DNA from: an uncultured Alphaproteobacteria bacterium
GTDB lineage: Bacteria; Pseudomonadota; Alphaproteobacteria; HIMB59; GCA-002718135
DNA length: 64,000 bases
NCBI GenBank assembly: GCA_902521315.1
Contig: CABYRH010000002.1
Location: 146,076-210,075 of the forward strand
Direction: 5' to 3'
Shown: piece after piece, positions 12,555 through 57,081 of the stretch
How positions within the stretch are numbered: the stretch's first letter is position 1
Layout: each line of letters begins with the position of its first letter
The notes under the pieces: model-generated
Databases searched by the model: none
Told to the model about the DNA's origin: nothing
Seen by the model: only the letters and a program-made list of their open reading frames with translations
Translations under genes and position numbers: made by a program

Positions 12555-12556
12555 AA

Positions 12557-39149: not shown

Positions 39150-39164
39150 ATTAATACGATTCTA

Positions 39165-41487: not shown

Positions 41488-42470
41488 TATATTTTTTGTT
41501 CCTGTCTATGTTTGTATAAATTCCATGCTAAGATTGGTATGACACCAATCATAATAACAATTGCTAAAACACTTCCTCTTCCCGAGTCACCACCACCTCT
41601 AAACATCCAGTCGTACATTAAGTTCGCTAAGACTCCGGTTTGCCATTCACCATTAGTCATAGCAAAAATAATATCAAATATTCTTAAAACAATTATTGTA
41701 ATTAAGGTCCAAATCACAAGTATCGTTTGTTCTAAATAAGGAATTATGATTGAAAAAAATATTTTTAACTCACTAGCTCCGTCAATTCTTGCCGCTTCAA
41801 GCATCTCCTTAGGTATGCTTCTTAATGCAGCACTAAAAATAACTAAAGCTAATCCAGTTTGTATCCAAATCATAATAGCCATCAAAAAGAAATTATTCCA
41901 CATAGGTATTGTTAACCATGCTTGTGGCTCATAACCAAGAGAAACAATTATTGCATTAAGTAATCCAATTTGTGTATTCTCAGGCCCTCTATATTCATAA
42001 ATAAATTTCCAAATTACACCAGCTCCTACAAATGATATTGCCATAGGCATAAATATTATAGATTTTGCAATTGAACCCCACCAAATTCTATCAGCTAAGT
42101 TAGCAATGACTAATCCAAAAAAAGTACTTAATGTTGGGACTACAAGTAACCATACTAAATTATTTAATATACTTCTTCTAAATTCAGGATCATTAATTGC
42201 CCATTTGTAATTGTATAGTCCAACAAATTCTCTTCCAAATTTATCATAAAAGCTAAGCCTTATAGTTTCAAAAACTGGATATAAAATAAAAATAAATAAA
42301 ACAACAAATGCGGGTGTTATAAAAACTATAACTCTTATAGAATTTTCAAAATTATATCTTTTCAGTGTTTTATTACCATAAATATCTAAAATATAATTTG
42401 AGATATGAAAGTAGGCTATAAAAAATAATATTCCTAAAAAAACAATAAATACTAAATTCAGGATAGTCAT
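41487..42470 (-). CDS. aglF: Alpha-glucoside-type ABC permease, AglF-like
   Basis: 327-aa MalF-type permease with an extra N-terminal helix, VFIVFLGILFFIAYFHI, before the usual set. The EAA loop is LEAARIDGASELKIFFSI. It is transcribed after the binding protein and separated from it by a stem-loop of 14 base pairs. The stop of this gene overlaps the aglG start. Confidence 0.85.
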   Translation of the reverse strand: MTILNLVFIVFLGILFFIAYFHISNYILDIYGNKTLKRYNFENSIRVIVFITPAFVVLFIFILYPVFETIRLSFYDKFGREFVGLYNYKWAINDPEFRRSILNNLVWLLVVPTLSTFFGLVIANLADRIWWGSIAKSIIFMPMAISFVGAGVIWKFIYEYRGPENTQIGLLNAIIVSLGYEPQAWLTIPMWNNFFLMAIMIWIQTGLALVIFSAALRSIPKEMLEAARIDGASELKIFFSIIIPYLEQTILVIWTLITIIVLRIFDIIFAMTNGEWQTGVLANLMYDWMFRGGGDSGRGSVLAIVIMIGVIPILAWNLYKHRQEQKI

Positions 42471-42491
42471 TAGTGATTAAATATATAAAAA

Positions 42492-42524
42492 AAACAGGCG
42501 AACAAGTTAATTGTTCGCCTGTTT
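42492..42524 (-). terminator. Strong stem-loop between aglE and aglF
   Basis: AAACAGGCGAACAA (42492-42505) pairs perfectly over 14 bases with TTGTTCGCCTGTTT (42511-42524) around a five-base loop. On the minus strand a T-rich run follows, so it can terminate or attenuate between the binding protein and permease genes. Confidence 0.8.
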
Positions 42525-42536
42525 ATAATTGAAAAG

Positions 42537-43841
42537 TTACTTAATTGCGTCCCAACTATCTTGGATCGCATCTGCTACATCTTGGGCAGACTTTCCATTA
42601 GTATAGTCAACCATACCAGTCCAGAAAGTTCCAGCACCAATAGCACCAGGCATTAAGTCTGACGCATCAAATCTAAACGTTGTTGCGCCTGTTAAAATTT
42701 CACCTAGTTTTCTAAAAGTTTCACTAGCATATTTACTTCCATCAACGCCTTTGTGAGGTGTTAGGAAACCACCTTTAGCCATCCAATATTCATGAGCTTC
42801 AGGATGCATTAGGAATTTAATGAACTCTATTGTCGCTTGGTTATCATTAGTAGCCGCTACTAATGTACCAGCTCCAAGTACAGGAGTTCCTAAATCTTTA
42901 GTTGCATATGCAGGAAAATAAAAGAAATCATAATCTACACCAGCTTCTACACCTTCAGGGAAAAATGCAGGAATAAAACTAGCTTGTCTATGCATCATAC
43001 ATTCTGCAGGTGAAGTGAAAAGTCCATTTGGAGCATCTCTAAAATCAGTAGTTGCTACTGCTTTAGATCCACCATTCACAAACTTGTCATTCAGCGCAAA
43101 AGTTCCAAAGAAATTCATTGCTTCAATAACTCTTGGGTCATTAAAAGGCATTTCATTGGATACCCACATATCATAAACATCAGGTGTATGTGTTCTAAGC
43201 ATGATATCTTCCATCCAGTCAGTTGCAGGCCAACCAGTTGCTGCACCTGAACCTAGACCAATACACCATGGAGTATTTCCATCTGATGCCATTTGTCTTG
43301 TTAATGCAATTAGCTCTTCCATTGTTCCAGGAACTTCGTAACCATTATCTTCAAAGTTATCTGGTGAATACCAAACCAAACTTTTTACGTTTGTTCTAAA
43401 GAAAATTGCATTAAACTGATCATTACCATTTTCATCGGCATAAGTAGAAAGATCAACCCATGATTGTCCGGCAGCATAGTTATCTAAAACCATTTGCTTA
43501 ATATCATCTCCAAGAGGAACTAATCCTCCCATAGCTGCTGCGTTTGCAGCAAGACCAGGTTGTGGAAATACAACTAGATCAGCAGCACTTCCAGCTTTTA
43601 GATCGATCATAACTTGTTGTTCAAAACTATCTGAACCACCATACTCAAAAGTTGCTCCTGTAGCTTTCTCAAATATAGCACCAACTTCTCTCATTGTTTC
43701 TTGTTCTGGTGACAACCAAGGACCAAACATAACTACTTTTTGACCAGTTAAATCTGGACCAGAATATTTGTGACCTCCAGCGTAAGCTGTGAAACTTAGA
43801 AATAATGAAGCAAGTATAATTAATAAATTTTTTATTTTCAT
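42537..43841 (-). CDS. aglE: Alpha-glucoside-type ABC substrate-binding protein, AglE-like
   Basis: 434-aa periplasmic binding protein with a signal peptide of about 21 residues (cut near AYA). WCIGLGSGAATGWPATDWME and the following MLRTHTPDVYDMW closely fit the AglE group, which binds sucrose, trehalose, maltose or other alpha-glucosides. A CGGAGG ribosome-binding site stands seven bases before the ATG. The promoter carries a LacI-type operator next to a divergent regulator, so expression should rise when the sugar is present. Confidence 0.87.
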   Translation of the reverse strand: MKIKNLLIILASLFLSFTAYAGGHKYSGPDLTGQKVVMFGPWLSPEQETMREVGAIFEKATGATFEYGGSDSFEQQVMIDLKAGSAADLVVFPQPGLAANAAAMGGLVPLGDDIKQMVLDNYAAGQSWVDLSTYADENGNDQFNAIFFRTNVKSLVWYSPDNFEDNGYEVPGTMEELIALTRQMASDGNTPWCIGLGSGAATGWPATDWMEDIMLRTHTPDVYDMWVSNEMPFNDPRVIEAMNFFGTFALNDKFVNGGSKAVATTDFRDAPNGLFTSPAECMMHRQASFIPAFFPEGVEAGVDYDFFYFPAYATKDLGTPVLGAGTLVAATNDNQATIEFIKFLMHPEAHEYWMAKGGFLTPHKGVDGSKYASETFRKLGEILTGATTFRFDASDLMPGAIGAGTFWTGMVDYTNGKSAQDVADAIQDSWDAIK

Positions 43842-43864
43842 AATTCCTCCGTAAATAATAATTA

Positions 43865-43893
43865 ATAATTATCCAAAACGTTTTGGTTGTCAA
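43865..43893 (-). promoter_or_regulatory. aglE promoter with -35 and -10 boxes
   Basis: On the minus strand TTGACA (43893-43888) is followed after 17 bases by AATTAT (43870-43865), a fair -10 box (four of six). The operator occupies most of the spacer. Confidence 0.55.
43873..43886. promoter_or_regulatory. LacI-family operator, perfect palindrome with central CG
   Basis: CCAAAACGTTTTGG is a perfect 14-bp inverted repeat with the central CG that LacI-family proteins favour. It lies in the spacer of the aglE promoter and 24 bases before the regulator's ATG, so the regulator at 43911-44936 can repress the importer and perhaps itself. Confidence 0.8.
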
Positions 43894-43910
43894 TTTATAT
43901 TATCTGGTTT

Positions 43911-44936
43911 ATGGAAAAAAATATGAATATTAAAGAATTAGCAAAAAAGCTTGATTTATCAATAACGACAGTTTCAAGGGGTTTAGCTGATTATTCAGAT
44001 GTAAGTGAAAAAACGAAAAAAAGAATTAAAAAATTTGCTGAAAAATATAATTATAATCCTAATCCTTATGCTGCAAATTTGGCATCACGAAGCTCCAAGA
44101 ACCTGGGATTCATTCTGCCATTATATGGGTTAAACTCATCTCCTCTAAATCAAATTTCATTTATTCAATTTTTGTCAGGAATGTATTCTAATCTCTCAAA
44201 AAATAATATTCAGCTGTCAATGCTCATGGCAAGAAGTCAAAATGAAGAAAAATCTTTATACGAAAAACTTATTGTAGAACAAAAAGTAAGGAACATCATT
44301 ATAAATAATTTAAGAATTAATGATAGCAGGATACCACTCTTAAAAAAAAATAAAGTTAATTTTGTAGCTTGGGGAAGAACACAAAACTTAAAAAATTATT
44401 CATGGGTAGATCTAGATAATCATAAAAGTATGCAAATTATTTTTGATCACTTAATAAAAAAAAATCATGAAAAGATTGCATTCATAAATATTAATAAAAA
44501 ATTTAATTTTGCTTATCAAAGAATGAAAACTTATTTTAGTGAAATAAAAAAATATAAAATTAGTTTTGATAAAAACCTATATATTGAAATACCCAAAAAT
44601 GATTCATTGTTAAGTGAGGAAGTTACAAGAAAATTGTTAAAAAATAAAAAAGTTACTGCTATTATATGTTGTACTGAATATATTGCGGCAGGAGCAATAC
44701 GTGCGTGTAATGATCTAAAAATAAAAATTGGTCATGACATTTCTCTTATTACGTATGATAGTTTGATAGTAAGTAATTTAATTACACCAAAAATAACTTC
44801 AATTTCTCATCCTACAGAGGACTTAGGTTACAATGCAGTAAAGTTATTAATGAGCAAGAATGGTAATGATTCTAAAAATAATTTTTATATGGCTAAGCCT
44901 ACGATTATTGATAGAGATTCAGTAAAAAAATTATAA
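43911..44936 (+). CDS. LacI-family transcriptional regulator of the agl genes
   Basis: 341 aa. The helix-turn-helix is near the N-terminus: IKELAKKLDLSITTVSRGL, followed by the hinge RSSKNLGFIL and a periplasmic-binding-protein-like sensor domain with CCTEYIAAGAIRACND and ISLITYDSL. It is divergent from aglE and should be repressed or released by an alpha-glucoside or a product. ATG 43911 is used, but the second ATG at 43923 fits the family N-terminus equally well. No clear Shine-Dalgarno is present, so the mRNA may be nearly leaderless. Confidence 0.87.
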   Translation: MEKNMNIKELAKKLDLSITTVSRGLADYSDVSEKTKKRIKKFAEKYNYNPNPYAANLASRSSKNLGFILPLYGLNSSPLNQISFIQFLSGMYSNLSKNNIQLSMLMARSQNEEKSLYEKLIVEQKVRNIIINNLRINDSRIPLLKKNKVNFVAWGRTQNLKNYSWVDLDNHKSMQIIFDHLIKKNHEKIAFININKKFNFAYQRMKTYFSEIKKYKISFDKNLYIEIPKNDSLLSEEVTRKLLKNKKVTAIICCTEYIAAGAIRACNDLKIKIGHDISLITYDSLIVSNLITPKITSISHPTEDLGYNAVKLLMSKNGNDSKNNFYMAKPTIIDRDSVKKL

Positions 44937-44948
44937 CTATACTTAATA

Positions 44949-45944
44949 TTAGGAAGTAATTTCTTTTTGAATAAAATAACTGTTATCTTTATTTTGTTTT
45001 ATTATTGCTGGAATAATTTCCTTATAGGCATCATACAAACTAGAATTAGCTTTTGGTAATTGATCTTTAATTAAATTACTCAACTTAGGTAAGTTGTATG
45101 ACGGAACGGAAGGAAACATATGATGCTCTACGTGATATTCCATGTGCCAATATAAAAAACTAAATATTGGATTAAAACGTACAGATCTAGTTGTGAACCT
45201 ATGATCTTTTATATCTTCTGGCAAACCTATGTGTTGAGTCATATTAAATATGTTAACAATGTTGCCCCAGTACCTAGGAAAAAATATTAATAATGCAGGA
45301 AGAGGGTTCATTAAATAAAATGATAGAGCAAAAGAGGCGATCCATAAAGAAACATGTATTCTTGAAATAAGACGACATTTCCAAATCTCATCTTGAGGAA
45401 TACATTCCTTCATAACAGGTGTCGTCATTCCTAACGCGTGCTTGATAGTTTCAAATTTAAAGGAGTCCTTGAACTTAACAAGTTCATAAAATGGAGCAAA
45501 ACTAAATAGGAAACTTTTTAGACTTGGATATTGATGAAATAATGCTGCTTCAAAATCATGAGGGTCAGCAACAGAAGAAGTATTGCTATGGTGTCTAAAA
45601 TGACTCCAAGTCCATCTAGTTGGTTCAAAGTCAGTCATAAAAGAACCAATTTGATAAAAAAATTCATTTAAAAATTTTGATTTGAATGCAGTTCTATGCC
45701 CGCATTCATGCCAAATTGGATTACTTGAATAAAAAAGAACACCGTAAAGCCATAACCATAAAACTGTCCACCATGTTCCCCATGTAGCTAAGGACATGTA
45801 TCCAAAAATAAATAAAAGAATAAAATATATAGTTACATGCTGTAATCCTTTTAGATCACTTTTTTTTGATAACTCTTTAAGATCTTTTTTACTTATTTCG
45901 GCTCTAAACCATTTGTCATCAACATTATCTAATTTCTCTGACAT
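44949..45944 (-). CDS. Membrane di-iron desaturase/hydroxylase, MocD-like (distal copy)
   Basis: 331-aa membrane protein with the three histidine boxes of di-iron desaturases and hydroxylases: HECGHRTAF, HFRHHSNT and YHVEHHMFP. A further TQHIGLPEDIKDHRFTTRS belongs to a subgroup that I associate with MocD of rhizopine catabolism. It has four or so membrane segments. It is the last gene of an eight-gene minus-strand run with a sugar-type importer, so a small imported molecule is a plausible substrate in place of a fatty acid. It is clearly a paralogue of the gene at 52167-53189. Confidence 0.82.
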   Translation of the reverse strand: MSEKLDNVDDKWFRAEISKKDLKELSKKSDLKGLQHVTIYFILLFIFGYMSLATWGTWWTVLWLWLYGVLFYSSNPIWHECGHRTAFKSKFLNEFFYQIGSFMTDFEPTRWTWSHFRHHSNTSSVADPHDFEAALFHQYPSLKSFLFSFAPFYELVKFKDSFKFETIKHALGMTTPVMKECIPQDEIWKCRLISRIHVSLWIASFALSFYLMNPLPALLIFFPRYWGNIVNIFNMTQHIGLPEDIKDHRFTTRSVRFNPIFSFLYWHMEYHVEHHMFPSVPSYNLPKLSNLIKDQLPKANSSLYDAYKEIIPAIIKQNKDNSYFIQKEITS

Positions 45945-46004
45945 ATATTTTCTTTATAAAACTATTATGAGATTTAAAAGACAAATATTAACTATTTTGT
46001 CTCA

Positions 46005-47060
46005 CTAAACGTCAACCCATCTTCTAATTTCATTACTTTCTATACATTTATCAATTATATTTTGAATTTTTGCACCTTGATAAAAATCGGGCTGCATATT
46101 CAAGTTTGTTTTTATTGACTCTATAAAGTTTTGATAATTACTTGGAGTTTTTGGACATTCAATAGTATCCCAAGCCATTTTATTGATATTTTCATCAATA
46201 CAAATATGCAATGTAGACCACTTAGTCCTTTCCTCATCTAGTTCAACTTTTAAAGCACCTTTTGTACAAAATACTTCTAGAATTAAAGAGTTTGCATGTC
46301 CAGTTGCATATCTTGTATTAGTTATTGTTCCAATAGCTCCATTTTCAAATCTAACTAATGAATTGAAACCATCATTAGCATCTAATGTATATTCTTTTAT
46401 TTTATTTCCTTTATCGAAGTAAGTTTTTAAATCAGTACATATTTCTTTTATGTCACCTACAGCATTAACAGCAAAATCAAAAATATGAACACCTGTATCT
46501 CCTAAAGCACCGTTACTTCCATGTTTTGTAGATAGTCTCCACAACCATTTGTCTTCCTCTCTCCAATCACCCCATTTATTACTTGTAAGCCAAGACTGAT
46601 AATAACAAGCACTAACATGTCTAGGATTTCCTATTTCTCCAGATTTTAATATTTCAACTAATCTTTGATATGCACTTGATTCCCTATAAGTAAAATTAAC
46701 CATATTAATTTTTTTAGATTGAACTGCTGCATTTACCATATCTTTTGCATCACTATAATTTTCAGCAAGTGGTTTTTCACAAAAAACATTATAACCACTT
46801 TTTAAAATTTGCAGTGTAGTCTCTTTATGAAACTTATCAGGTGTTGTATTGCTAATACCATCAAAAGTTTTTTCTTTTTCGAGCATTTCTTCTAAACTTA
46901 AATATCCTCTGATATCTGCATTTTTGTTATTTGATAAAAATATTTCTAAATTTTTTTGATTTGTATCACAAACAGCTTCAACATTGACATTTGGCATATT
47001 GTTAAATTCATCAAGATGTCTTGAAGAGATATTTCCTGTTCCAACAATACCAATTTTCAT
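46005..47060 (-). CDS. Gfo/Idh/MocA-family oxidoreductase (moc-like operon)
   Basis: 351-aa NAD(P)-dependent oxidoreductase. It opens GIVGTGNISSRHLDEF, has the catalytic Lys in VFCEKPLAENYSDA and an active-site GDTGVHIFDFAV. One base separates it from the ThuA-like gene before it. In rhizopine genes MocA is of this family, and a sugar or inositol substrate is likely given the importer in the same run. Confidence 0.87.
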   Translation of the reverse strand: MKIGIVGTGNISSRHLDEFNNMPNVNVEAVCDTNQKNLEIFLSNNKNADIRGYLSLEEMLEKEKTFDGISNTTPDKFHKETTLQILKSGYNVFCEKPLAENYSDAKDMVNAAVQSKKINMVNFTYRESSAYQRLVEILKSGEIGNPRHVSACYYQSWLTSNKWGDWREEDKWLWRLSTKHGSNGALGDTGVHIFDFAVNAVGDIKEICTDLKTYFDKGNKIKEYTLDANDGFNSLVRFENGAIGTITNTRYATGHANSLILEVFCTKGALKVELDEERTKWSTLHICIDENINKMAWDTIECPKTPSNYQNFIESIKTNLNMQPDFYQGAKIQNIIDKCIESNEIRRWVDV

Positions 47061-47061
47061 T

Positions 47062-47844
47062 TTATTTTTCTTCTGTTGGATGTCCTACACTAAAACCTTT
47101 CTTACTAATCTTTTCAATAGGTTTTGGTCTATTACTTTTGGGAGTTGGAGAATGTATATCTTCCCACAAAACTTTATTTTTCTGTTTTACAAAATGTATT
47201 GCATTTTTAATCACGATTTGCACATTTATATTATGATAAGTTGGATATGCTTCATGACCTGGTCGAAAATAAAATATTTGACCATTTCCTCTTCTATATA
47301 ATAAGCCAGATCTAAAGGTTTCTCCTCCTTCAAACCAACTAGTAAAAAGTGTTTCATCTGGAGATGGAACCTGAAAAGGCTCACCATACATTTCTTCCAT
47401 TTCTAGTTCAAAATGCGGTTGTAAACCCTCGCAGATAGGATGGCCAGGATTGCATATCCATAATCTTTCTTTTTCACCGTATTCTCTCCAAGTTAAATTA
47501 CAATTAGTACCCATTAATTTTTTAAATATCTTTGAATGATGTCCGGAATGTAATACTATCAAACCCATTCCTTCAAGAACTCGTCGTTGTACTAAATCAA
47601 CTGTTTTATCTAATACTTCGTCATGCGCTTTGTGGCCCCACCAAATAACAACATCACAATTTTTTAATAATTCTTCACTTAATCCATTTTGATCTTCTTT
47701 GAGCGTAGCAGTTTTAATTTTTAAACTATTATCAGTTGATAAAAAATCTTTTATGCATCCATGAATACCTTTGGGATAAATTTTTTTAACTTCTTCATTT
47801 TCTACTTCATGAATATTTTCATTCCAAATTATAACATTAGTCAT
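47062..47844 (-). CDS. ThuA-like protein (trehalose utilisation family)
   Basis: 260-aa glutamine-amidotransferase-fold protein. WWGHKAHDEVLDKTVD, LIVLHSGHHSKIF and the ending FYFRPGHEAYPTYHN are the ThuA marks. ThuA-like proteins are often next to Gfo/Idh/MocA enzymes and help in oxidation or conversion of sugars; the exact reaction is uncertain. It precedes the Gfo gene by one base and follows the permease by seven. Confidence 0.87.
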   Translation of the reverse strand: MTNVIIWNENIHEVENEEVKKIYPKGIHGCIKDFLSTDNSLKIKTATLKEDQNGLSEELLKNCDVVIWWGHKAHDEVLDKTVDLVQRRVLEGMGLIVLHSGHHSKIFKKLMGTNCNLTWREYGEKERLWICNPGHPICEGLQPHFELEMEEMYGEPFQVPSPDETLFTSWFEGGETFRSGLLYRRGNGQIFYFRPGHEAYPTYHNINVQIVIKNAIHFVKQKNKVLWEDIHSPTPKSNRPKPIEKISKKGFSVGHPTEEK

Positions 47845-47851
47845 TCTAGTA

Positions 47852-48826
47852 TTATCTAACTCTTTCTCCGTGTAACCGATGTCCTAGTAATGCTAGCAAT
47901 ATGATTAATCCGTTAAAGAATTGTCTCCACTCACCACTCCAGCCAATGGCAATAATTCCTATTTCCATATAGGCAATTATACCAACGCCAAATACTGCTC
48001 CAATAATAGTTCCTAACCCTCCCCAGTAAGGAGTGCCACCAACAAAAACAGCTGCTAGAGCAAGCAATAAATAACCAAATCCTTGAGTAGGGAAAAATGT
48101 ATAAGTAATCATTGTTGTAAAAATTCCACCAATAGCAGAGCCAATACCTACAAACATGAATGCTTTAATCTTCACCGCATTTACATTAATACCCATCTGT
48201 TCTGCGCTAACAGAATTATCTCCTACATGCTGAATATGAATACCAAAAACATGTTTGTTAAAAAAATAATAGCAAAATATTACAAATATTGCTGCCCAAA
48301 AAATTTGCATTGGGAAGCCATAAAAATTTCCAACTAAAAGAGGGTAGATCCAGTGGCTATCTATTTCCATAATCGTAATTGATCTGCTGTTAGATAATAA
48401 GAGAATTACACCTCTCAGTAAAAATAATACTCCAAGAGACGCAACAAGAGAGGAAAGTCTAAATACAACAATTAATGTTCCAACGAGAGCACCAATAGCT
48501 GCTCCAGTAAAAATACCTAGTACTAAACAAATAGCTGGATCAACTCCATTTTTAACAAGTAAAGCAAATACGTAAGCTGCTACAGCGTAAGTAGAGGCAA
48601 AGGAAAGATCTATTTCACCAGATGCAACTAGAAAAACTAATGGAATAGTTAAAAATATCAAAGTTGGCATCATTACAAATACTGATTGATGAAGGTTAGG
48701 TCTTATCCAAGCTTCTGGTGCACCTACTAAAAAAATTACCATTAAAAGTACAAAATATCCAATGCTTCCTAAAGCTCTTCCATTTCTGTGAAAGTAATTA
48801 CTTAAATATGAATTATTATTGCTCAT
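47852..48826 (-). CDS. Ribose/inositol-type ABC permease (RbsC-like)
   Basis: 324-aa BPD_transp_2 permease with about nine hydrophobic segments and marks such as ASGEIDLSFASTYAVAAYVF and VFVGGTPYWGGLGTIIGAVF. A single gene codes the channel, which forms a homodimer in this class. Its start overlaps the ATPase stop by one base. It should bring in the ligand of the RbsB-type protein upstream. Confidence 0.9.
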   Translation of the reverse strand: MSNNNSYLSNYFHRNGRALGSIGYFVLLMVIFLVGAPEAWIRPNLHQSVFVMMPTLIFLTIPLVFLVASGEIDLSFASTYAVAAYVFALLVKNGVDPAICLVLGIFTGAAIGALVGTLIVVFRLSSLVASLGVLFLLRGVILLLSNSRSITIMEIDSHWIYPLLVGNFYGFPMQIFWAAIFVIFCYYFFNKHVFGIHIQHVGDNSVSAEQMGINVNAVKIKAFMFVGIGSAIGGIFTTMITYTFFPTQGFGYLLLALAAVFVGGTPYWGGLGTIIGAVFGVGIIAYMEIGIIAIGWSGEWRQFFNGLIILLALLGHRLHGERVR

Positions 48827-49572
48827 TAGTGTGCTCCTATAGTATCTCTCATTATTTTCATGAGTTCTTCAGGAGTAGATATGTCATTCTTATTGAGTTG
48901 ATGAACGACTTCTCCTCTATCTAAAATTACAAATCTATCTGATATGTCGTATACATGATAAATATTATGACCAATAAATAGAACAGATCTATTTGATTTT
49001 TTTACATTTAAGACAAAATCAAAAACTTTCTGTGTTTCATTAAGAGATAAGTTATTTGTTGGCTCATCAAGAACAATTAATTCTGCTTTATTATAAATTG
49101 CTCTTGCAATTGCTACGCCTTGTCTTTCACCTCCGGATAAATTTCCAACTGGAGATTCAGCATTTATTAATTTTGATGTAAAACCTATTTCTCTAATTAA
49201 TCTATTTGCTTCAAAAATTTGTTCTTTTTCTTTAATAAAACCAAATGGATATCGAAGTTCCTTACCCATAAAAATATTTTTAACTATCGATTGTTGTGGA
49301 GTTAAAGCTCTATCTTGAAAAACAGTTTCTATACCAGACTCTCTAGCCTTGAGTGCATTCCAAGCGTTTACTTTTTTTCCTCTTATAAGTATATCACCTT
49401 CGTCAGGACTATAAACACCTACTAGTGTTTTAATTAATGTTGATTTACCTGCGCCATTATCACCAATTAAACCTACAACTTCACCTCTGGTTACTTTTAA
49501 TGATGCTTTGTTTAAAGCAGTAATACCGCCAAATCTTTTTGTAACATTATCTAATTCAATGATATTTTCCAT
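48826..49572 (-). CDS. Ribose/inositol-type ABC ATPase, single-domain
   Basis: 248-aa ATPase with Walker A GDNGAGKST, signature NLSGGERQGVAIARAI, Walker B LIVLDEPTN and the switch FIGHNIYHVYDI. Most RbsA proteins have two ATPase domains in ~500 aa; this one has only one and must act as a dimer. It overlaps the permease gene and follows the binding-protein gene after a stem-loop. Confidence 0.9.
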   Translation of the reverse strand: MENIIELDNVTKRFGGITALNKASLKVTRGEVVGLIGDNGAGKSTLIKTLVGVYSPDEGDILIRGKKVNAWNALKARESGIETVFQDRALTPQQSIVKNIFMGKELRYPFGFIKEKEQIFEANRLIREIGFTSKLINAESPVGNLSGGERQGVAIARAIYNKAELIVLDEPTNNLSLNETQKVFDFVLNVKKSNRSVLFIGHNIYHVYDISDRFVILDRGEVVHQLNKNDISTPEELMKIMRDTIGAH

Positions 49573-49583
49573 AAATTTTGAAA

Positions 49584-49609
49584 TGCTAACCCATCAAAAT
49601 GGGTTAGCA
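49584..49609 (-). terminator. Stem-loop between binding-protein and ATPase genes
   Basis: TGCTAACCCAT (49584-49594) pairs with ATGGGTTAGCA (49599-49609) around a four-base loop. It follows the stop of the binding-protein gene at once on the minus strand and lies 11 bases before the ATPase start. Only a weak T run follows, so attenuation or mRNA protection is likelier than full termination. Confidence 0.65.
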
Positions 49610-49619
49610 ATATATTTAC

Positions 49620-50615
49620 CTATCTTAAGCCTGCATCAGCAAGAGCTTTAACAGCTTGATAGTTATTTGTATCAACAAACCCTGCACCAGTATCTTGGTT
49701 TATTGCGCCAGTACCAAGTACAGCTGTTTGACAAAGTGATAACACTGGAAGATACCCTTGAAGGAAAGGTTGTTGATCAGATGTTAGATGAACATATCCT
49801 TTTTCAAACGCCGACATAATTTGTGGGCTAGTATCAAATCCAATTTGAAGTAACTCATTTGGTCCATAACCAGCTGCTTTGGCAATACCTTCTGCAACAT
49901 TCATTACATCACTTCCAGAGTGAACAATTACTTTTGTTTCAGGATTTGCATTTAACGCTGCTGAGAAAACTGGGATAGTCATATTCGGATCTGAAGCATA
50001 AGCTGGTTGTCCATCAAGAACAGTTACTGTCATTCCGTGTTCTTCAAATATTATTCTTGCACCATCTTCTCTTTGAGCTCTAGCGTAATCTCCAATAGGA
50101 ACCATTACTATAGCGTGATCTCCAGCTTTGAAACCAAATTGCCTAATTGCTTCTCTTGCAAGAGCTTTACCTTGAGTTGCTAAATTTGCTCCTACGTATC
50201 CGCCACCAAATTTTGCTCTTACACCTGATGGATCAACGTTTTGATATGTCATTAGAATACCTTTTTCAGCAGCTTGTTTTGCTAAAGGCATTAATGCTTC
50301 ATCGCCAGGATGCCCCATCATTGCAATAGCATCTACTCCAAGTCCAACTGATTCTCTAAGTTGACGGACCATTTTTTCAAAATCCCATTCTGAGTAAATA
50401 ATTTCAGCATCTGCGCCCGTATCTCTTATTGCATTCATTGCTCCTGCTGCAACTATTCCAGCAAAGCCACCAGCCTCAGGACCGCCAGCATAGAAATGCA
50501 TTTTTACGTCTGAGCACCATTTGTCACCAAGATCTTGTCCAGTTGGAGCAGCATATGCATGCATAGAAACTGGAAGAAGAAAAATTGTGATTAAAAATAA
50601 TTTTATAATTTTCAT
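49620..50615 (-). CDS. Ribose/inositol-type ABC substrate-binding protein (RbsB-like)
   Basis: 331-aa periplasmic-binding-protein type 4 receptor with signal peptide of about 22 residues (cut near AYA). Marks are GHPGDEALMPLAKQAAEKGI, YVGANLATQGKALAREA and HLTSDQQPFLQGYLP. ATG at 50615 was chosen because GGGAGG lies seven bases upstream; an earlier in-frame start would include it. It has its own promoter-like boxes. Binding proteins of this class take pentoses, inositols or other small polyols. Confidence 0.88.
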   Translation of the reverse strand: MKIIKLFLITIFLLPVSMHAYAAPTGQDLGDKWCSDVKMHFYAGGPEAGGFAGIVAAGAMNAIRDTGADAEIIYSEWDFEKMVRQLRESVGLGVDAIAMMGHPGDEALMPLAKQAAEKGILMTYQNVDPSGVRAKFGGGYVGANLATQGKALAREAIRQFGFKAGDHAIVMVPIGDYARAQREDGARIIFEEHGMTVTVLDGQPAYASDPNMTIPVFSAALNANPETKVIVHSGSDVMNVAEGIAKAAGYGPNELLQIGFDTSPQIMSAFEKGYVHLTSDQQPFLQGYLPVLSLCQTAVLGTGAINQDTGAGFVDTNNYQAVKALADAGLR

Positions 50616-50655
50616 AATTCCTCCCATGAATTAATTTAAATATTATAATAATGTT

Positions 50656-50684
50656 GTTAAACTAAAAATACCTGTGAATGTCAA
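50656..50684 (-). promoter_or_regulatory. Promoter-like boxes upstream of the RbsB-like gene
   Basis: On the minus strand TTGACA (50684-50679) stands 17 bases before TTTAAC (50661-50656), a fair -10 box (four of six). It lies just after the aldehyde dehydrogenase stop, so the importer genes may be transcribed separately. Confidence 0.4.
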
Positions 50685-52121
50685 CTAGTACAATCTTTTA
50701 CTTATTCTTTTAGTTTGTCCGTGACTGTAAATACCATCAACACCACCGTCTCTCCCATAACCTGATCTTTTATATCCACCACCTGGAAGATTGGTACCAT
50801 CTACAAACCAATCATTTTGCCAAATTATTCCTGCTTGTATCCTATCTGCTGTCCATTTTGCTTTTTGATCATCAGCAGTAAAAACACCAGAGGCTAATCC
50901 ATATTTTGTTGAATTTGCAATATTTATAGCTTCTTCTTCATCTTCAAAATCAAAAATAGATGTAACTGGACCAAAGATTTCCTCCTGCGCAATTGTTGCT
51001 TCAACTTTAACATTATCAAAAATTGTTGGTTGATAAAAATTACCTTCATCTCTATCAGCTTTATCTCCCCCTAATGTTAGGGTGGCACCAGATTGTATTC
51101 CTGATTTTACATAATTCGAAACTCTTTGCATTTGATCAGTTGAAATAAGAGGTGTTACTTGTGTTCCATCTTCGTCACCAGCACCAACTTTTAATTTTTG
51201 AGTTTTAGCTACAAGCTTTGTCATATATTCATCTTTTATTTTAGGATGAACAATTACCCTCGACATTGCTACACATATTTGTCCTGCATTAGGTTTAAAA
51301 ATTCCTTTAACAGTACTATCAACCGCTTTATCAATATCCGCGTCAGGATAAATAATAGCTGCAGACTTACCACCTAATTCAAAATGCGTAGGTATAATTC
51401 TATCAGCTGTTTCTTTTAAAATTTCTGATGCAACTTCTGGAGATCCGGTGAAAACGATATAGTCACAACCTGAATGTTGAACTAGCTTTCTTCCAGTAGT
51501 TTCACCATAACCATGAATAATATTAATAATTCCTTTAGGAACACCAACTTCTTCAAATATTTGACCATAAAAATTTGAAGAAATAGGACATAACTCAGGA
51601 GGTTTAATTACAATAGTATTGCCAACAATCCAGTTTTGCGCAACCATTCCAGAAAACAAAGAAACAGGATAATTCCATGGAACAATTTGTAGTGCTACTC
51701 CAAAAGGTTCTAAGACAACATAATTTAAAGTATCATTTCCTGATGGGATTAATTTATTTTCTATTTTATCTGTTAGTCCAGCATAGAAGTCAAATGTATC
51801 TGCCGCCCCTTTAAATTCATCTACGCATTGTTTGATGGTTTTACCATTTTCTTGACTTAAAAGCTTACCACCTTCATCTTTTCGTTCCCTTAATTTTTGA
51901 GCAATTGCTCTCATCATATTTGATTTTTCTTTTGAGTCCATATCAACTAAAATTCTTTTATCGAAAGCTCTTTTAGCTGCTTGGAAGGCTAAATCTATTT
52001 CTTCATCCAGCGCTTCATCAATATTTCCTACAATTTTTTGATTTGCTGGATTTAAAACAGGAATATTTTTTTTTGATATTGAATCAATAAATTTACCATC
52101 AATAAAATTTCTTAACTCCAT
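50685..52121 (-). CDS. NAD(P)-dependent aldehyde dehydrogenase (moc-like operon)
   Basis: 478-aa aldehyde dehydrogenase with Asn150 in VPWNYPV, Glu248 in HFELGGKSAAI and Cys283 in AGQICVAMSRVI. ATG at 52121 was chosen; a start four codons upstream adds little. It lies between the proximal desaturase and the importer genes and is a paralogue of the copy at 6635-8068. It may oxidise an aldehyde released when the desaturase-type enzymes attack an imported compound. Confidence 0.92.
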   Translation of the reverse strand: MELRNFIDGKFIDSISKKNIPVLNPANQKIVGNIDEALDEEIDLAFQAAKRAFDKRILVDMDSKEKSNMMRAIAQKLRERKDEGGKLLSQENGKTIKQCVDEFKGAADTFDFYAGLTDKIENKLIPSGNDTLNYVVLEPFGVALQIVPWNYPVSLFSGMVAQNWIVGNTIVIKPPELCPISSNFYGQIFEEVGVPKGIINIIHGYGETTGRKLVQHSGCDYIVFTGSPEVASEILKETADRIIPTHFELGGKSAAIIYPDADIDKAVDSTVKGIFKPNAGQICVAMSRVIVHPKIKDEYMTKLVAKTQKLKVGAGDEDGTQVTPLISTDQMQRVSNYVKSGIQSGATLTLGGDKADRDEGNFYQPTIFDNVKVEATIAQEEIFGPVTSIFDFEDEEEAINIANSTKYGLASGVFTADDQKAKWTADRIQAGIIWQNDWFVDGTNLPGGGYKRSGYGRDGGVDGIYSHGQTKRISKRLY

Positions 52122-52166
52122 ATATATTATCAATAAAACTAAAGTTCAGGAAGTGTCAAGTATAGT

Positions 52167-53189
52167 TTAATTATTTGGAACTTGTACGGGTATATAATAA
52201 TCTGGATTTTTTGATTTTTTAATTACAGCTGGAATTATATCTTTGTATGCAGAGTATAAAGTTTGTGGTTCTGGTAACTGATCTTTTATTATTTCATACA
52301 ATTTTGGAAGATTGTAAGATGGGACCATTGGAAACATATGATGCTCAATATGATATTCCATTTTCCAATATATAAAACTAAATACAGGGTTCAATCTTAC
52401 AGACCTAGTAGATAGACGATGATCTTTTGTATTTTCTTGCAAACCCATATGTTGAGTGATGCCCCAAATACCATTGAAAGTTGCAAAAAATTTTGGAACT
52501 AAAAATAATAATATAGGAAGTAATGAGCTAAAGTAAATTGAAGAAGCAATTATTGATATCCAAAGAAAAACAAAAATTCTTGAACTATTAATACAATCTT
52601 GAATTTTATCTTGAGGTATACAATCTCTCATAACATCTGTTTTAATTCCAAGGGCATGTTTGATAATTTCAATATATAATGATTTGTGTATAGTAAAAAA
52701 ACCAATTCCAGGAATAAAATTAATTAAAAAACTTAAAAGTGTGTGTTTAGAAAAAATACTACCATCAGCTTCGTAATCGTGAGGATCAACTGAGGCGGTA
52801 TAACTATGATGTAGAGAATGACTCCATCTCCATCTAACAGGCTCAAAGTTATTCATAAAGCTTGCAACATGATAAAAGAAATCATTTAACTTTCGTGTTT
52901 TAAAAGCTGTTCTGTGGCCACACTCATGCCAAATAGCATCTGCACCACCCCAGAACATGCAGTACGCAAGATAGAATGGAATAAACCACCAAGTTTCCCA
53001 AAAGTAAGCTGATAAGATACCTAATCCTGAAAGGGATAAAGTAAATATTATAATATGTTTCCATCCCTCGTAATCAGTTCTTTTTGACAGATTTTTAAGA
53101 GTTTTTCGGTCAATATTTGCTCTGAACCATTCATTTGAAATATTATTGATACCAGTTTGTACTTTTTGTTCTTTAGTCATATTTTTCAT
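52167..53189 (-). CDS. Membrane di-iron desaturase/hydroxylase, MocD-like (proximal copy)
   Basis: 340-aa membrane enzyme with histidine boxes HECGHRTAFK, HSLHHSYT and YHIEHHMFP and the subgroup stretch TQHMGLQENTKDHRLSTRS. It shares the same layout and many identical segments with the copy at 44949-45944. First gene of the minus-strand run. Its electron donor (ferredoxin and reductase, as MocE/MocF) is not in the window. A fatty-acid desaturase is the alternative; the context argues for a hydroxylase of a small imported molecule. Confidence 0.82.
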   Translation of the reverse strand: MKNMTKEQKVQTGINNISNEWFRANIDRKTLKNLSKRTDYEGWKHIIIFTLSLSGLGILSAYFWETWWFIPFYLAYCMFWGGADAIWHECGHRTAFKTRKLNDFFYHVASFMNNFEPVRWRWSHSLHHSYTASVDPHDYEADGSIFSKHTLLSFLINFIPGIGFFTIHKSLYIEIIKHALGIKTDVMRDCIPQDKIQDCINSSRIFVFLWISIIASSIYFSSLLPILLFLVPKFFATFNGIWGITQHMGLQENTKDHRLSTRSVRLNPVFSFIYWKMEYHIEHHMFPMVPSYNLPKLYEIIKDQLPEPQTLYSAYKDIIPAVIKKSKNPDYYIPVQVPNN

Positions 53190-53293
53190 TATAATTAATA
53201 AAAAATTAATATTTTTCCAGTAATTTTATCAATATTATTTTATAACAATCAGTATATTTAGTTTATTTAGAAAAAAATAAAAATCTTAAAATA

Positions 53294-54589
53294 ATGAATC
53301 TTACTATCGTTGGAACAGGCTATGTTGGGTTAGTAACTGGAGCATGCTTTGCCGAATTTGGTTATTCTGTAACATGTGTAGACAACGATATTAAACGCCT
53401 TGAAATACTTAAATCAGGTAAGTGTCCATTTTTTGAACCAGGTATGGATGAGCTTTTGGATAAGCATATAAACAAAACAAAATTAATAACTTTTGAATCA
53501 ACCATTAAAAATAACTTAGATAATACAGATATAATTTTTATTACTGTGGGAACTCCAACAAGAAGATTAGAGGATGAGGCTGATTTAAGTTTTGTCTGGC
53601 AAGTTGCTGAAGAAATTGCTGAAAATATAAAAAAATATTGTTTAGTTGTAACTAAGTCTACTGTTCCAGTTGGAACTACAAGAGAAGTACAAAAAATTAT
53701 TTCAAATAAAATTGATCAAAAACTTTTTGACGTAGTATCCAACCCAGAATTTCTTCGAGAGGGATCTGCAATTAATGATTTTATTAGACCGGATAGAGTA
53801 GTTATAGGAACAGAAAATAAAAAATCTGAAAATATTATGAAGGAGCTTTACAGACCTTTATTTCTTAAAGAAACTCCAATTGTAGCTACATCTATCGAAA
53901 CTTCAGAGATAATTAAATACGCATCAAATAGTTTTCTAGCTACAAAAATAGCTTTCATTAATGAGATTGCAGATTTATGCGAAGTTGTTGGAGCTGATGT
54001 TCAGCAAGTTGCGTATGCAATGGGTATAGATAAAAGGATTGGATCTAAATTTTTGAATGCTGGACCCGGATTTGGTGGTTCATGTTTTCCAAAGGATGTT
54101 AAGGCATTTGCATCAACTGCTAAAAAGAAAAATATTGATTTATCAATTATTAATGCGGTTAATAAATCTAACCAAGATCGAATAATAAAAATTTTAAATA
54201 AAATAATTTCAAATATTGAGAAAAAATCTACTATTTGTTTTCTTGGTTTAAGCTTCAAGCCTAATACTGATGATGTTAGAGACTCTACTTCCATGAAAAT
54301 TGCATCTAAACTATTTAAAAAAGGATATAATGTTCATTGCTACGATCCTGAAGCAATGAATAATGCCAAAAAAGAAAATACTAATCTTATTTTTTTCAAT
54401 TCTGCTTATGAAGCTTGTGAAGGAGCATCGTCAATTATTATTGGAACAGAATGGAATGAATTTAGAGCATTAAATTTCAATGAAATATCAAAAATTGTAA
54501 AAGAAAAAATAATCTTTGATCTAAGAAACATTTATATTCCAGAAGATTTAAAAGAGCTTGGATTTAAATACTATGGAACTGGAAAATAA
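53294..54589 (+). CDS. ugd: UDP-glucose 6-dehydrogenase
   Basis: 431-aa enzyme that makes UDP-glucuronate with two NAD. The N-terminal GTGYVGLVTGACFAEFGYSV binds NAD, VTKSTVPVGT and NPEFLREGSA line the site, and the nucleophile Cys is in GPGFGGSCFPKDVKAF near residue 260. The C-terminal half binds UDP. It overlaps the phosphomannomutase gene by 17 bases, which supplies hexose 1-phosphate for sugar nucleotides used in envelope polysaccharide. Confidence 0.93.
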   Translation: MNLTIVGTGYVGLVTGACFAEFGYSVTCVDNDIKRLEILKSGKCPFFEPGMDELLDKHINKTKLITFESTIKNNLDNTDIIFITVGTPTRRLEDEADLSFVWQVAEEIAENIKKYCLVVTKSTVPVGTTREVQKIISNKIDQKLFDVVSNPEFLREGSAINDFIRPDRVVIGTENKKSENIMKELYRPLFLKETPIVATSIETSEIIKYASNSFLATKIAFINEIADLCEVVGADVQQVAYAMGIDKRIGSKFLNAGPGFGGSCFPKDVKAFASTAKKKNIDLSIINAVNKSNQDRIIKILNKIISNIEKKSTICFLGLSFKPNTDDVRDSTSMKIASKLFKKGYNVHCYDPEAMNNAKKENTNLIFFNSAYEACEGASSIIIGTEWNEFRALNFNEISKIVKEKIIFDLRNIYIPEDLKELGFKYYGTGK

Positions 54590-55979
54590 ATTGAAAATTG
54601 AAAATTTTGATAAAGAGGTTCTAAGAGAATATGACATTAGAGGAGTAGTTGGAGATAATATTAATCAAAATACGGCCTATACAATAGGAAGGACTTTTGG
54701 ATATACTGTAATAAATCGATTACAATCTAATATAATTGCCACTGGTTATGATGGAAGATTAACATCACCAGATTTACATCAAGCTCTTTGCGAGGGTTTA
54801 AAGGATGCAGGAGCAAAAGTTATCAATATTGGTATGGGGCCAACTCCAATGACTTATTTTGCTCATTATCATCTTGAGGCTGATGCTGTTATTATGGTTA
54901 CTGGATCACATAACCCTTCAGAATATAATGGTTTCAAAATGGTTTTAGCTAAACATTCTTTTTATGCTGAAGATATCAAAAGCCTTCAAAAATTAATTGA
55001 TCAGGATAATTTAAAATTAGTAAAGGGTGAAATTATTGATAAAGATATTAAATTAGATTATACCAAGAGATTATTACAAAATATTAATCTCAATAAAAAA
55101 ATAAAAATTGCTTGGGATATTGGTAATGGCGCGATGGGAGCTGTCATTAAGGAAGTTACAAACAATTTAAATAATTCTGAAAATATATTAATTAATGAAG
55201 AAGTTGATGGCAATTTCCCTAATCATCACCCAGATCCAACTGTTCCAAAAAATATGGAGCAATTAATAAAGTCAGTCAAAGATAACAAATGTGACATAGG
55301 TCTGGCTTTTGATGGAGATGGAGATCGTTTAGGTGTTGTAGACAACTTAGGCAATTTAGTTTGGGCGGATCAGTATATGTTATTACTATGCACTGAAATA
55401 GCTAACTTATACGATAACCCAAAAATAATTATGGATGTTAAATGTAGTAAAGTTTTTTTTGATGAAACAAAAAAACTTAATTGTGATCCTATTATGTCTA
55501 AAACTGGTCACTCTCCAATAAAAGAAAAAATGAAAGAATTGAATTCACCATTATCTGGAGAAATGAGTGGCCATGTTTGTTATGCTGATGATTTCTATGG
55601 GTATGATGATGCTATGTATGTAGCACTACGACTACTTAGAATACTATGTAATCAAGAAAAATCCTTGAATGAGTTAATTAAAATATATCCAAAAACTTAT
55701 TCAACCCCTGAAACAAGGTTTGATGTAGATGAAACAAAAAAATTTTTAATTATTGAAGAAATAAAAGAAAGAATAAAAAATACAGAAGGTAAAATAATAG
55801 ATATTGACGGAATAAGAGTTGAAAATAATGATGGATGGTTCCTAATGCGAGCTAGTAATACCCAAAACCAACTAACTTGTAGAGCAGAGTCAACTTCTCG
55901 AGAAGGCCTTAAGTCTTTGATAGCAATTATTGAAAACCAGTTATCTATAAGCGGTGTAAATTATAAATTTACAATCTAA
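54573..55979 (+). CDS. Phosphomannomutase/phosphoglucomutase
   Basis: 468-aa alpha-D-phosphohexomutase. LREYDIRGVVGDNI opens the first domain, the phosphoserine loop is TGSHNPSEYNGFK near residue 111, the metal loop is FDGDGDRLGV and the sugar loop is GEMSGHVCY. ATG at 54573 is used; the frame also begins with a TTG at 54591 after the ugd stop. It converts mannose or glucose 6-phosphate to the 1-phosphate. Its end overlaps the convergent dacA gene by 11 bases. Confidence 0.92.
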   Translation: MELENKLKIENFDKEVLREYDIRGVVGDNINQNTAYTIGRTFGYTVINRLQSNIIATGYDGRLTSPDLHQALCEGLKDAGAKVINIGMGPTPMTYFAHYHLEADAVIMVTGSHNPSEYNGFKMVLAKHSFYAEDIKSLQKLIDQDNLKLVKGEIIDKDIKLDYTKRLLQNINLNKKIKIAWDIGNGAMGAVIKEVTNNLNNSENILINEEVDGNFPNHHPDPTVPKNMEQLIKSVKDNKCDIGLAFDGDGDRLGVVDNLGNLVWADQYMLLLCTEIANLYDNPKIIMDVKCSKVFFDETKKLNCDPIMSKTGHSPIKEKMKELNSPLSGEMSGHVCYADDFYGYDDAMYVALRLLRILCNQEKSLNELIKIYPKTYSTPETRFDVDETKKFLIIEEIKERIKNTEGKIIDIDGIRVENNDGWFLMRASNTQNQLTCRAESTSREGLKSLIAIIENQLSISGVNYKFTI

Positions 55980-57081
55980 CAAAACAATCACGATTATATT
56001 TTTTCAGTCTTTTACATGCTGTATACGCTTCTTTTTTAGAAAAATTTTCAAATCTAGATTCATAAAGTTGTTTACCGCTAACTTTTATCAGCACAATATT
56101 TGAAATTTTATCTTTAGTAGAAACTGGATATTTACTTTTAATTAATTTGATTTGTTTTTCTGCATTATTTCTATACTTAAATGTTCCAACCACAATGGAA
56201 TAAGCATTTTTTTTCTTTTCAATTTTTTGGTTTGCAGTCTCTTCTTTTTTAACTATTTTTTTATTACTACTTTTTGTCTTAATATTTAATTCAGCAAATT
56301 CTTTATCCATTATTATTTTTAAAGATTTGTTCCGTTGGCTTCCTGTATCACCTCCAAAAATAATTCCTATTAATCTCTTATCATCTCTGACAGCTGAAAA
56401 AGCTAACTGAAAACCAGATGCTTTTATATATCCAGTTTTAATTCCATCAGCACCATCGTAGCTTAACATTAATTTATTATGCGTTTTGTAAGTCTTACCC
56501 TGATACGTAAATTTTGTATTACTAAACAATTTATACTCTTCTGGAAAATTTGAAATTAGTGCATGTGAAAGTTTTGCTATATCTCTTGCAGTTGTTAATT
56601 GCGCTCTATTAGGAAGACCGGATGCATTTTTGAATGTTGTACTTTTCATACCTAGATTTTTTGCATATTGAGTCATAAGTTTCGCAAATTCTTTTTCAGT
56701 TCCTGCTATATTTTCTGCTACTACAGTAGCTACATCATTTGCAGATTTAATAATAAGTGCATTTACAGCGTCTCTAACTTTGATACTTGAACCTTCCTCT
56801 AAATATAACTTACTCGGCGATCTTGATGCAGCAACACTTGATACATTTAATTGACTATCGAAGCTAAGTTTTCCTTTTTTTATATAATCAAATACAATGT
56901 ATAGAGTCATTATTTTTGTTAGCGATGCTGGGTAATTTCTTGTATCAGCATTGACTTCAAATAATACTTCTTCAGTATCAAAATCTATTACTATTGCTGC
57001 TTTTTTAGCAAATAGATTTGATGAAAAACTTAATATTAAAAAACTATTTAAAATTATGACTAATAGTAAATTTTTTTTCAT
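55969..57081 (-). CDS. dacA: D-alanyl-D-alanine carboxypeptidase with SPOR domain
   Basis: 370-aa peptidoglycan enzyme of family S11. Signal peptide spans the first ~25 residues (cut near LFA). The catalytic SxxK is ASLTKIM, SxN is in KSANDVATV and KTG in GADGIKTGYIKASG. A SPOR domain from about residue 290 (YSIVVGTFKYRNNAEKQI) binds septal glycans and would target it to the division site. It trims pentapeptide side chains in the periplasm. Confidence 0.92.
   Translation of the reverse strand: MKKNLLLVIILNSFLILSFSSNLFAKKAAIVIDFDTEEVLFEVNADTRNYPASLTKIMTLYIVFDYIKKGKLSFDSQLNVSSVAASRSPSKLYLEEGSSIKVRDAVNALIIKSANDVATVVAENIAGTEKEFAKLMTQYAKNLGMKSTTFKNASGLPNRAQLTTARDIAKLSHALISNFPEEYKLFSNTKFTYQGKTYKTHNKLMLSYDGADGIKTGYIKASGFQLAFSAVRDDKRLIGIIFGGDTGSQRNKSLKIIMDKEFAELNIKTKSSNKKIVKKEETANQKIEKKKNAYSIVVGTFKYRNNAEKQIKLIKSKYPVSTKDKISNIVLIKVSGKQLYESRFENFSKKEAYTACKRLKKYNRDCFVRL

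Follow-up and report, generated by a model that had tools for sequence, protein, structure and literature searches.

Gene content of the locus

Here we analysed a run of eight genes in a 64,000-nucleotide stretch of DNA (the window) from an uncultured alphaproteobacterium of the HIMB59 lineage, whose draft genome (G000) comprises 1.54 Mb in 35 contigs and is 87% complete. The run encodes two membrane di-iron oxygenases resembling MocD of rhizobial rhizopine catabolism, termed D2 and D1, together with an aldehyde dehydrogenase (ALDH), a sugar-type ATP-binding cassette (ABC) importer, a ThuA-like protein and a Gfo/Idh/MocA dehydrogenase. An earlier note had placed these eight genes on the minus strand, in a fixed order, between 44949 and 53189; the open reading frame coordinates and the Pfam family of every gene agree. 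In the order of transcription, the genes are as follows:

52167..53189, minus strand: D2, MocD-like di-iron oxygenase (FADS family), first gene; Pfam FA_desaturase, E 1e-35
50685..52133, minus strand: aldehyde dehydrogenase; Aldedh PF00171, E 2e-148
49620..50627, minus strand: periplasmic receptor of a CUT2-type sugar importer; Pfam Peripla_BP_4
48826..49572, minus strand: single-domain ABC ATPase, 248 amino acids; Pfam ABC_tran PF00005
47852..48826, minus strand: CUT2-type permease; Pfam BPD_transp_2, E 6e-35
47062..47844, minus strand: ThuA-like protein; Pfam ThuA PF06283, E 2e-31
46005..47060, minus strand: Gfo/Idh/MocA dehydrogenase; Pfam GFO_IDH_MocA PF01408
44949..45944, minus strand: D1, second MocD-like oxygenase; Pfam FA_desaturase, E 4e-32

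From D2 to D1 the intergenic gaps are 33, 57, 47, −1, 7, 1 and 60 bp, and because eight genes on the minus strand are separated by no more than 60 bp, they likely form one transcription unit.

Conservation and transfer of the cassette

The cassette is a real, conserved and transferred version of MocD-type catabolism; its protein families, linkage, gene replacement, phylogeny and transfer are read here from the sequences themselves. With the receptor, 74 loci (L numbers below) were retrieved from a collection holding one genome per species, many of them close relatives. At least 4.5 kb upstream is available for 63 loci and at least 5.2 kb downstream for 64, and 55 are complete on both sides. 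A D2-type oxygenase was found within 4.5 kb upstream of the receptor in 62 of the 63 upstream-informative loci (the exception is L046), and the ATPase and permease genes follow the receptor in 63 of the 64 downstream-informative ones (the exception is L022). The linkage between D2 and the receptor is not a matter of chance, and the neighbourhood on whose conservation the earlier note relied is indeed conserved, and also transferred between lineages. Of the 55 complete loci, 27 show the full eight-gene order, as far as genes were recognised, thus answering a check proposed in that note; in all 27, ugd lies near D2 and the receptor is 73–100% identical to that of the window.

The remaining genes vary. 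Upstream of the receptor, the 63 loci carry ALDH in 58 cases, a gene for a protein resembling PanB (ketopantoate hydroxymethyltransferase) in 16, and a MocE gene in 9, each of which also has the PanB-like gene (9/9). D1 occurs in 28 of the 55 complete loci, namely 28 of the 40 without the PanB-like gene and none of the 15 with it. Thus, the two oxygenases said to bracket the importer are both present in the window, but D1 is lineage-specific, and the transferable core consists of D2 and the importer. The gene content of one locus, L033, was read differently in two scans.

The set of D2, PanB-like protein, receptor, ATPase and permease was also found in loci labelled as Rhodobacteraceae (L059, L061-L063), Porticoccaceae (L053) and Gammaproteobacteria (L064), all of which except L053 bear a GH4 gene as well. 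In the Rhodobacteraceae-labelled L061, the receptor, ATPase and D2 are 89%, 87% and 69% identical to those of the window, respectively. Since carB of a window relative (L257) is only 58–59% identical to carB of L059 or L063, the much closer receptors indicate that the cassette was transferred between lineages. Lineage labels of metagenome-assembled genomes may suffer from binning errors; L059, L061 and L062 bear AG codes and are not titled as such genomes, and isolate codes of the AG-nnn/AH-nnn form, borne by most related records, presumably denote ocean single-cell genomes.

In the window lineage, the cassette adjoins ugd and lies outside the CUT1 importer operon; in L044, L050, L052 and others it interrupts such an operon, separating the second permease gene from that of the ATPase. 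Close to where other loci have MocE next to D2, a flavodoxin-like gene was seen in L046:7103-7540 and in L049; D2 itself was not found in L046. Another alphaproteobacterium (L217:7909-11739) has two adjacent MocD-like genes next to CUT1-like permeases.

Oxygenases, importer and aldehyde dehydrogenase

D1 and D2 are 50–51% identical, and both contain the motifs HECGHRTAFK, HxxHH and TQHxGLxExxKDHR quoted in the earlier note. The three histidine boxes of membrane FADS di-iron enzymes (HECGH, HxxHH and HxEHH) are invariant in 18 aligned D1/D2 proteins. Two trees were built, the first with 74 proteins and the second with 69, three long-branch rows and two duplicates being removed. In the second, a 100/99 branch separates 40 rows on the MocD side, a set named only after the first tree had been inspected, from 29 other FADS, so that the comparison is between MocD and unlabelled FADS, with no biochemically characterised acyl-lipid desaturase included. 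The MocD side holds D1, D2, five paralogs from another contig of the same genome (C8), three sister-family proteins and four rhizobial MocD. The latter (L152-L154, L158) sit in a 13-row clade (99/98 in the first tree) that leaves D1 and D2 outside. The proposed MocD-like subgroup therefore holds in that D1 and D2 group with rhizobial MocD against 29 other FADS, but it does not extend to membership in the rhizobial MocD clade itself.

Against the curated desaturase models DesA and DesB, D1 and D2 score only 27–39 bits, the cut-off being 500. A DesB search of 150 genomes of the phylum gave no sequence above the cut-off, and among ten scanned proteins (one rhizobial MocD and nine other FADS, the latter represented by their matched parts) none exceeded the cut-off of any curated model. 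Because these nine FADS pass no curated model, the tree is silent on how far the other FADS lie from characterised desaturases. The Pfam family name FA_desaturase might suggest that D1 and D2 are acyl-lipid desaturases merely neighbouring a sugar importer; given the low model scores, the MocD-side placement, a linkage that holds across lineages and the MocE gene beside D2 in 9 of 63 loci, we regard this as very improbable. The AlphaFold2 model of D2 has a mean pLDDT of 63.1; a Foldseek search with it gave nothing at E ≤0.001, the AlkB-AlkG structure ranking third at E 0.58, and we give this little weight.

The Peripla_BP_4 receptor, BPD_transp_2 permease and single-domain ABC ATPase together make up a CUT2 sugar importer, the ATPase aligning to only the first half of the sugar-importer ATPase models of about 500 residues. 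The best PDB sequence match of the receptor is 4ru1 (E 1.8e-10), and its AlphaFold2 model, made with 16 close sequences, has a mean pLDDT of 51.8. The best NCBIfam model of the receptor is the rhizopine substrate-binding protein (NF052284), which it matches with 68 bits vs. a cut-off of 420. This best match, together with the presence of MocD-, MocA- and MocB-type families, could be taken to mean that the run serves catabolism of true rhizopine (3-O-methyl-scyllo-inosamine) in the rhizobial style. Such a role seems very improbable to us: the receptor score is far too low, no MocR- or MocC-type gene is found among the eight, the neighbouring regulator is of the LacI type, and D1 and D2 fall outside the rhizobial MocD clade. 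To our knowledge, moreover, there is no marine source of rhizopine. The model closest to ALDH is betaine-aldehyde dehydrogenase TIGR01804, at 438 bits and thus under its cut-off of 668.6.

Interchange of ThuA and Gfo/Idh/MocA with GH4

Among the 74 loci, the permease gene is followed by ThuA in 53 and by GH4 in 14, and never by both; in the 64 loci complete downstream, only L022 and L033 have neither. The replacement occurs at one position: the interval bounded by the importer genes on one side and the CUT1 ATPase gene on the other is filled by the ThuA/MocA pair in L044, L045, L049 and L050, and by GH4 in L046, L048, L052, L054 and L055. Against the alpha-galactosidase model the GH4 protein scores 293 of 486 bits, and the best NCBIfam model of the Gfo/Idh/MocA protein is levoglucosan dehydrogenase (NF052479; 138 bits vs. 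a cut-off of 650). GH4-like genes were also seen after the receptor homologue in Photobacterium (L156; 26%) and near a MocD-like gene in L226.

According to the available part of PMC7676230, the levoglucosan route proceeds by 3-dehydrogenation, elimination, hydration and reduction, carried out by four enzymes, and its authors liken it to GH4; the available part of PMC10628242 describes a dehydrogenase and an eliminase that act on other glycosides in a manner analogous to GH4. Because ThuA plus Gfo/Idh/MocA is replaced in place by GH4, the two never occurring together, cleavage of a glycoside through a 3-keto intermediate is suggested, and ThuA/MocA and GH4 may well perform the same step on the same substrate. 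The earlier note had proposed import of a methylated or amino cyclitol or sugar; in view of the interchange, a glycoside seems likelier than a free cyclitol.

Electron carriers and further modules in the genome

MocE/MocF-like electron carriers had been described as absent. This is correct for the eight-gene run, but both are encoded on contig C8 of the same genome. There, a MocD-like gene (L113:9322-10308) is followed by a reductase nearest to HcaD models (10314-11543), a MocE-family ferredoxin (11596-11913; 136.0 bits vs. the TIGR02377 cut-off of 136.15), a PanB-like gene (11933-12760) and a second MocD-like gene (12764-13780), the cluster being divergent from another receptor-ATPase-permease set. 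A genome of the same genus, 96% complete (G357), holds both the window-type cassette (L223) and the C8-type cluster (L224), and in a sister lineage a MocE-family ferredoxin is encoded divergently from D2 itself (L044; TIGR02377, 122 bits vs. 136.15). Of the 37 genus genomes, counting the one under study, 27 have a MocE match above 150 bits, and in the sister family 3 of the 24 genomes have a MocE match of any score; MocD-like genes, among the matches listed, are present in 36 of the 37 and 22 of the 24, respectively.

Contig C8 bears two further modules. One comprises substrate-binding protein, permease, ATPase and MocD-like genes (L111:5747-9466), after which come PanB-like, another MocD-like and Gfo/Idh/MocA genes; the other (L111:12687-17376) comprises substrate-binding protein, permease, ATPase, PhyH-like and MocD-like genes. 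PhyH and GH4 labels in relatives denote similarity to reference proteins, the PhyH reference itself lying below the NCBIfam cut-offs. In total, the genome has four importer-oxygenase modules (in the window, in L113 and two in L111) and seven MocD-like genes, a notable number for 1.5 Mb.

The PanB-like protein

The most interesting part of our results is the PanB-like partner, for which no earlier report was found in the open-licence PubMed Central literature searched. PanB-like proteins match PF02548 (two proteins tested) as PanB does (1m3u), and in a tree of 42 such sequences, reduced from 119 by similarity, and 5 genuine PanB, a 100/100 branch separates them from genuine PanB of the same order. 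His134, Glu179, Asp107 and Asp215 are retained in all 42. Asp81 is replaced by Gly, Ala, Thr or Ser and Lys110 is lost in 42/42, and Glu112 is lost in at least 37/42. We take Asp81 and Lys110 to be metal- and substrate-binding residues of E. coli PanB, and because they, and mostly Glu112, are lost, the PanB-like proteins can hardly be ketopantoate synthases.

The PanB-like gene is the most frequent partner seen for MocD-like genes. Of the 103 PanB-like cases among the matches listed, 63 have a MocD-like hit no more than 2.5 kb away and 68 have one within 5 kb; for genuine PanB, the count within 2.5 kb is 0 of 46. Conversely, 74 of 150 MocD-like hits overall have a PanB-like gene within 2.5 kb, and so do 23 of the 24 sister-family hits, two of the 24 being of the 30%-identical kind. 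No PanB-like gene is that near to D1 and D2 of the window or to their closest relatives. Five stretches around PanB-like genes lack MocD; the neighbouring gene is PhyH-like in two, FA_hydroxylase-like in one and GH4-like in one, and the last has none of these. One PanB-like stretch, L261, has no recognised oxygenase in its vicinity. In L258:8860-13000 and L259:8125-11493, two tandem PanB-like genes stand amid PhyH-like ones (three and two, L259 being cut by the contig end), with no MocD.

The mocDEF genes are tied to rhizopine catabolism (available parts of PMC10107442 and PMC3538637), and the mocD promoter, in work using S. meliloti L5-30 sequences, is induced by scyllo-inosamine (available part of PMC10107442). 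The PanB-like gene appears in these rhizobial surroundings as well. It follows MocD, MocE and the reductase in R. etli (L152) and Phyllobacterium (L153), where PurU and FolD come next in L153 (the only locus scanned for FolD), and it is followed by PurU in two Sinorhizobium loci (L158, L268). Thus, L153, L158 and L268 have MocD, MocF-like, PanB-like and PurU genes in one run, with MocE seen in L153 and L268; S. meliloti 1021 (L267) has MocD, MocE and the PanB-like gene; and Rhizobium Q54 (L154) has MocDEF with a rhizopine-binding protein and no PanB-like gene within the stretch. In all eight records listed among the matches with both genes, MocD and PanB-like lie less than 3 kb apart. Because PurU and FolD, enzymes of one-carbon folate metabolism, adjoin it in rhizobia, the PanB-like protein may put the methyl carbon on folate. 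Searches of open-licence PubMed Central found no report of ketopantoate hydroxymethyltransferase together with rhizopine and, among the matches listed for rhizopine with formyltetrahydrofolate or tetrahydrofolate demethylation, no rhizopine paper; term look-ups in papers on this lineage found no mention of rhizopine or desaturase.

The same data can be read another way: the oxygenases might hydroxylate a C-methyl or other carbon, the alcohol being oxidised further and ALDH making an acid, with no one-carbon release and the PanB-like protein serving as a later aldolase or isomerase. ALDH in 58 of the 63 loci, the third rank that AlkB, a membrane di-iron hydroxylase, takes with the poor model of D2, the loss of ketopantoate synthase residues and the PanB-like stretch of L261 all agree with this. 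Nevertheless, Pfam finds no alcohol dehydrogenase among the eight genes, no ALDH occurs in the transferred cassettes L058, L059 and L061-L064, which retain D2, PanB-like protein, importer and GH4, and PurU after the PanB-like gene in three rhizobial loci, with FolD in one, suits one-carbon chemistry. We therefore consider such C-hydroxylation unlikely, and keep to demethylation in what follows.

Regulatory and other features near the run

Two further features were located:

43887..44936, plus strand: LacI-family regulator (Pfam PF00356 and Peripla_BP_3), tail to tail with D1
49584..49609, no strand assigned: 11-pair hairpin in the receptor-ATPase gap, the sole terminator-like site found in the region

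The regulator diverges from a CUT1 importer operon (39165-43841), and its association with the eight-gene run is uncertain. The hairpin is weak evidence, the one terminator-like site comparing with a mean of 3.4 in shuffled sequences; it perhaps sets the receptor level above that of the remaining genes. Promoter-like sites number 45, vs. a shuffle mean of 53. An Rfam scan of 39000-58000 gave no match, and a tRNA scan of the whole window found none.

Discussion

The gene content described above suggests that a methylated glycoside is taken up, demethylated by oxidation and cleaved by way of a 3-keto intermediate, a reading which, taken as a whole, we give about an even chance. Its parts are not equally firm: D2 very probably acts on the imported compound or its product, the substrate is probably a glycoside, and the chances that the oxygenase chemistry is demethylation are slightly better than even. 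For the substrate, the demethylation, the folate step and the roles of ALDH and D1, we infer the following route. The receptor, permease and ATPase would import a small methylated glycoside or cyclitol-like compound, whose methyl group, most likely an O-methyl, would be hydroxylated by D2, a membrane di-iron enzyme of the MocD group. A Rieske ferredoxin of the MocE type and a reductase of the MocF type would supply the electrons. Sister lineages have a candidate MocE gene adjoining D2, and in this genome candidates for both MocE and MocF lie on a different contig. The carbon of the methyl group would leave as formaldehyde or an unstable hydroxymethyl, to be loaded, where a PanB-like protein is present, probably onto tetrahydrofolate. 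Gfo/Idh/MocA and ThuA would break the glycosidic bond by oxidation at C3 and elimination, as a single GH4 enzyme would do elsewhere. Finally, ALDH may oxidise an aldehyde of the released part, and D1 may be a second, lineage-specific oxygenase for a second methyl group or a variant substrate.

Besides the composition of the oxygenase tree, several observations weigh against this route. The window cassette has neither MocE nor the PanB-like gene, so that both could act only in trans. Of the 37 genus genomes, 10 have no MocE match above 150 bits, and 21 of the 24 sister-family genomes have no MocE match at all; a different electron donor may account for this patchiness, or incomplete genomes may explain part of it. 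Nor do MocE and PanB-like genes mark the MocD side alone, because four FADS across the branch have such partners. Both L160:8394 and L170:7788, of the sister family, adjoin MocE, MocF and PanB-like genes; L162:13394 has a PanB-like neighbour, and L179 has MocE and MocF as neighbours. The genes concerned in L160 (L160:6860-10298), like those of L170, stand next to an importer. Among ten stretches with more distant MocD-side genes, from nine genomes, only three have MocE or PanB-like. PurU exceeded its cut-off in none of 21 genomes of the window's order (19 have matches below it), so that the rhizobial link to PurU and FolD does not carry over to the window lineage. Last, in L159:9201-10972 and L160:13385-15155 of the sister family, a MocD-like and PanB-like pair adjoins a glutamine-synthetase-like gene, near Rieske oxygenase or GBBH-like genes, which suggests an N-methyl version.

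With this pair and the betaine-aldehyde type of ALDH in mind, one could suppose that D2 is an N-demethylase and the substrate an N-methyl (betaine-like) compound, the sugar-type importer having changed its ligand. ThuA or GH4 after the importer in every one of the 64 downstream-complete loci but L022 and L033, as well as the GH4-like gene after the Photobacterium receptor homologue, speak against this, and we think it quite unlikely for the cassette studied here.

With rhizobial rhizopine catabolism (mocDEF, mocBA, mocR, mocC), the proposed O-demethylation route shares a MocD-type oxygenase, a CUT2-type receptor and a Gfo/Idh/MocA protein, with MocE and MocF in the genome, and the PanB-like gene, which follows mocDEF in several rhizobia, accompanies MocD-like genes in the window's relatives. 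Unlike the rhizobial system, the cassette adds ThuA or GH4 and ALDH, has two oxygenases and lacks MocR and MocC in the run; its receptor scores far under the rhizopine cut-off, and D1 and D2 lie outside the rhizobial MocD clade. A P450 is responsible for the demethylation of 6-O-methyl-D-galactose in marine Flavobacteriia (available part of PMC10033563). As described in that part, both systems would remove an O-methyl group oxidatively from a marine sugar with redox partners, as shown there and proposed here; unlike the P450 system, the window's has a FADS-type di-iron enzyme, the Rieske ferredoxin family, ABC import and 3-keto glycosidase genes. The likeness to the levoglucosan enzymes LgdA-B1-B2-C and the GH4 mechanism, as far as the available parts of PMC7676230 and PMC10628242 describe them, lies in a 3-dehydrogenase, putative in the window, acting first and in the equivalence to GH4; unlike in that pathway, the putative partner in the window is ThuA-like. 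According to the available part of PMC1976395, a fosmid library from the deep Mediterranean contains a mocD-like gene (42% similarity), read as rhizopine catabolism of Rhizobiales; that part describes a single gene and no cluster, unlike the multi-gene cassette found here.

More broadly, we tentatively propose that the PanB-like proteins form an unrecognised family moving a demethylase-derived one-carbon unit to tetrahydrofolate, in association with MocD-, PhyH- (Fe/2OG) and FA_hydroxylase-type oxygenases, both among bacteria of the ocean and in the rhizopine clusters of rhizobia; the window cassette would be one of several methyl-harvesting modules within a single streamlined genome. Such a link would also hint at what becomes of the methyl carbon during rhizopine breakdown, and it is testable in the tractable Sinorhizobium. 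In the literature searched, the only marine sugar-demethylation enzyme we met is the Flavobacteriia P450 (available part of PMC10033563). A MocD-type route in streamlined marine alphaproteobacteria, if true, names a consumer and testable genes, and the methyl-harvesting modules, if they are such, would allow these bacteria to feed on the methylated sugars of marine dissolved organic matter.

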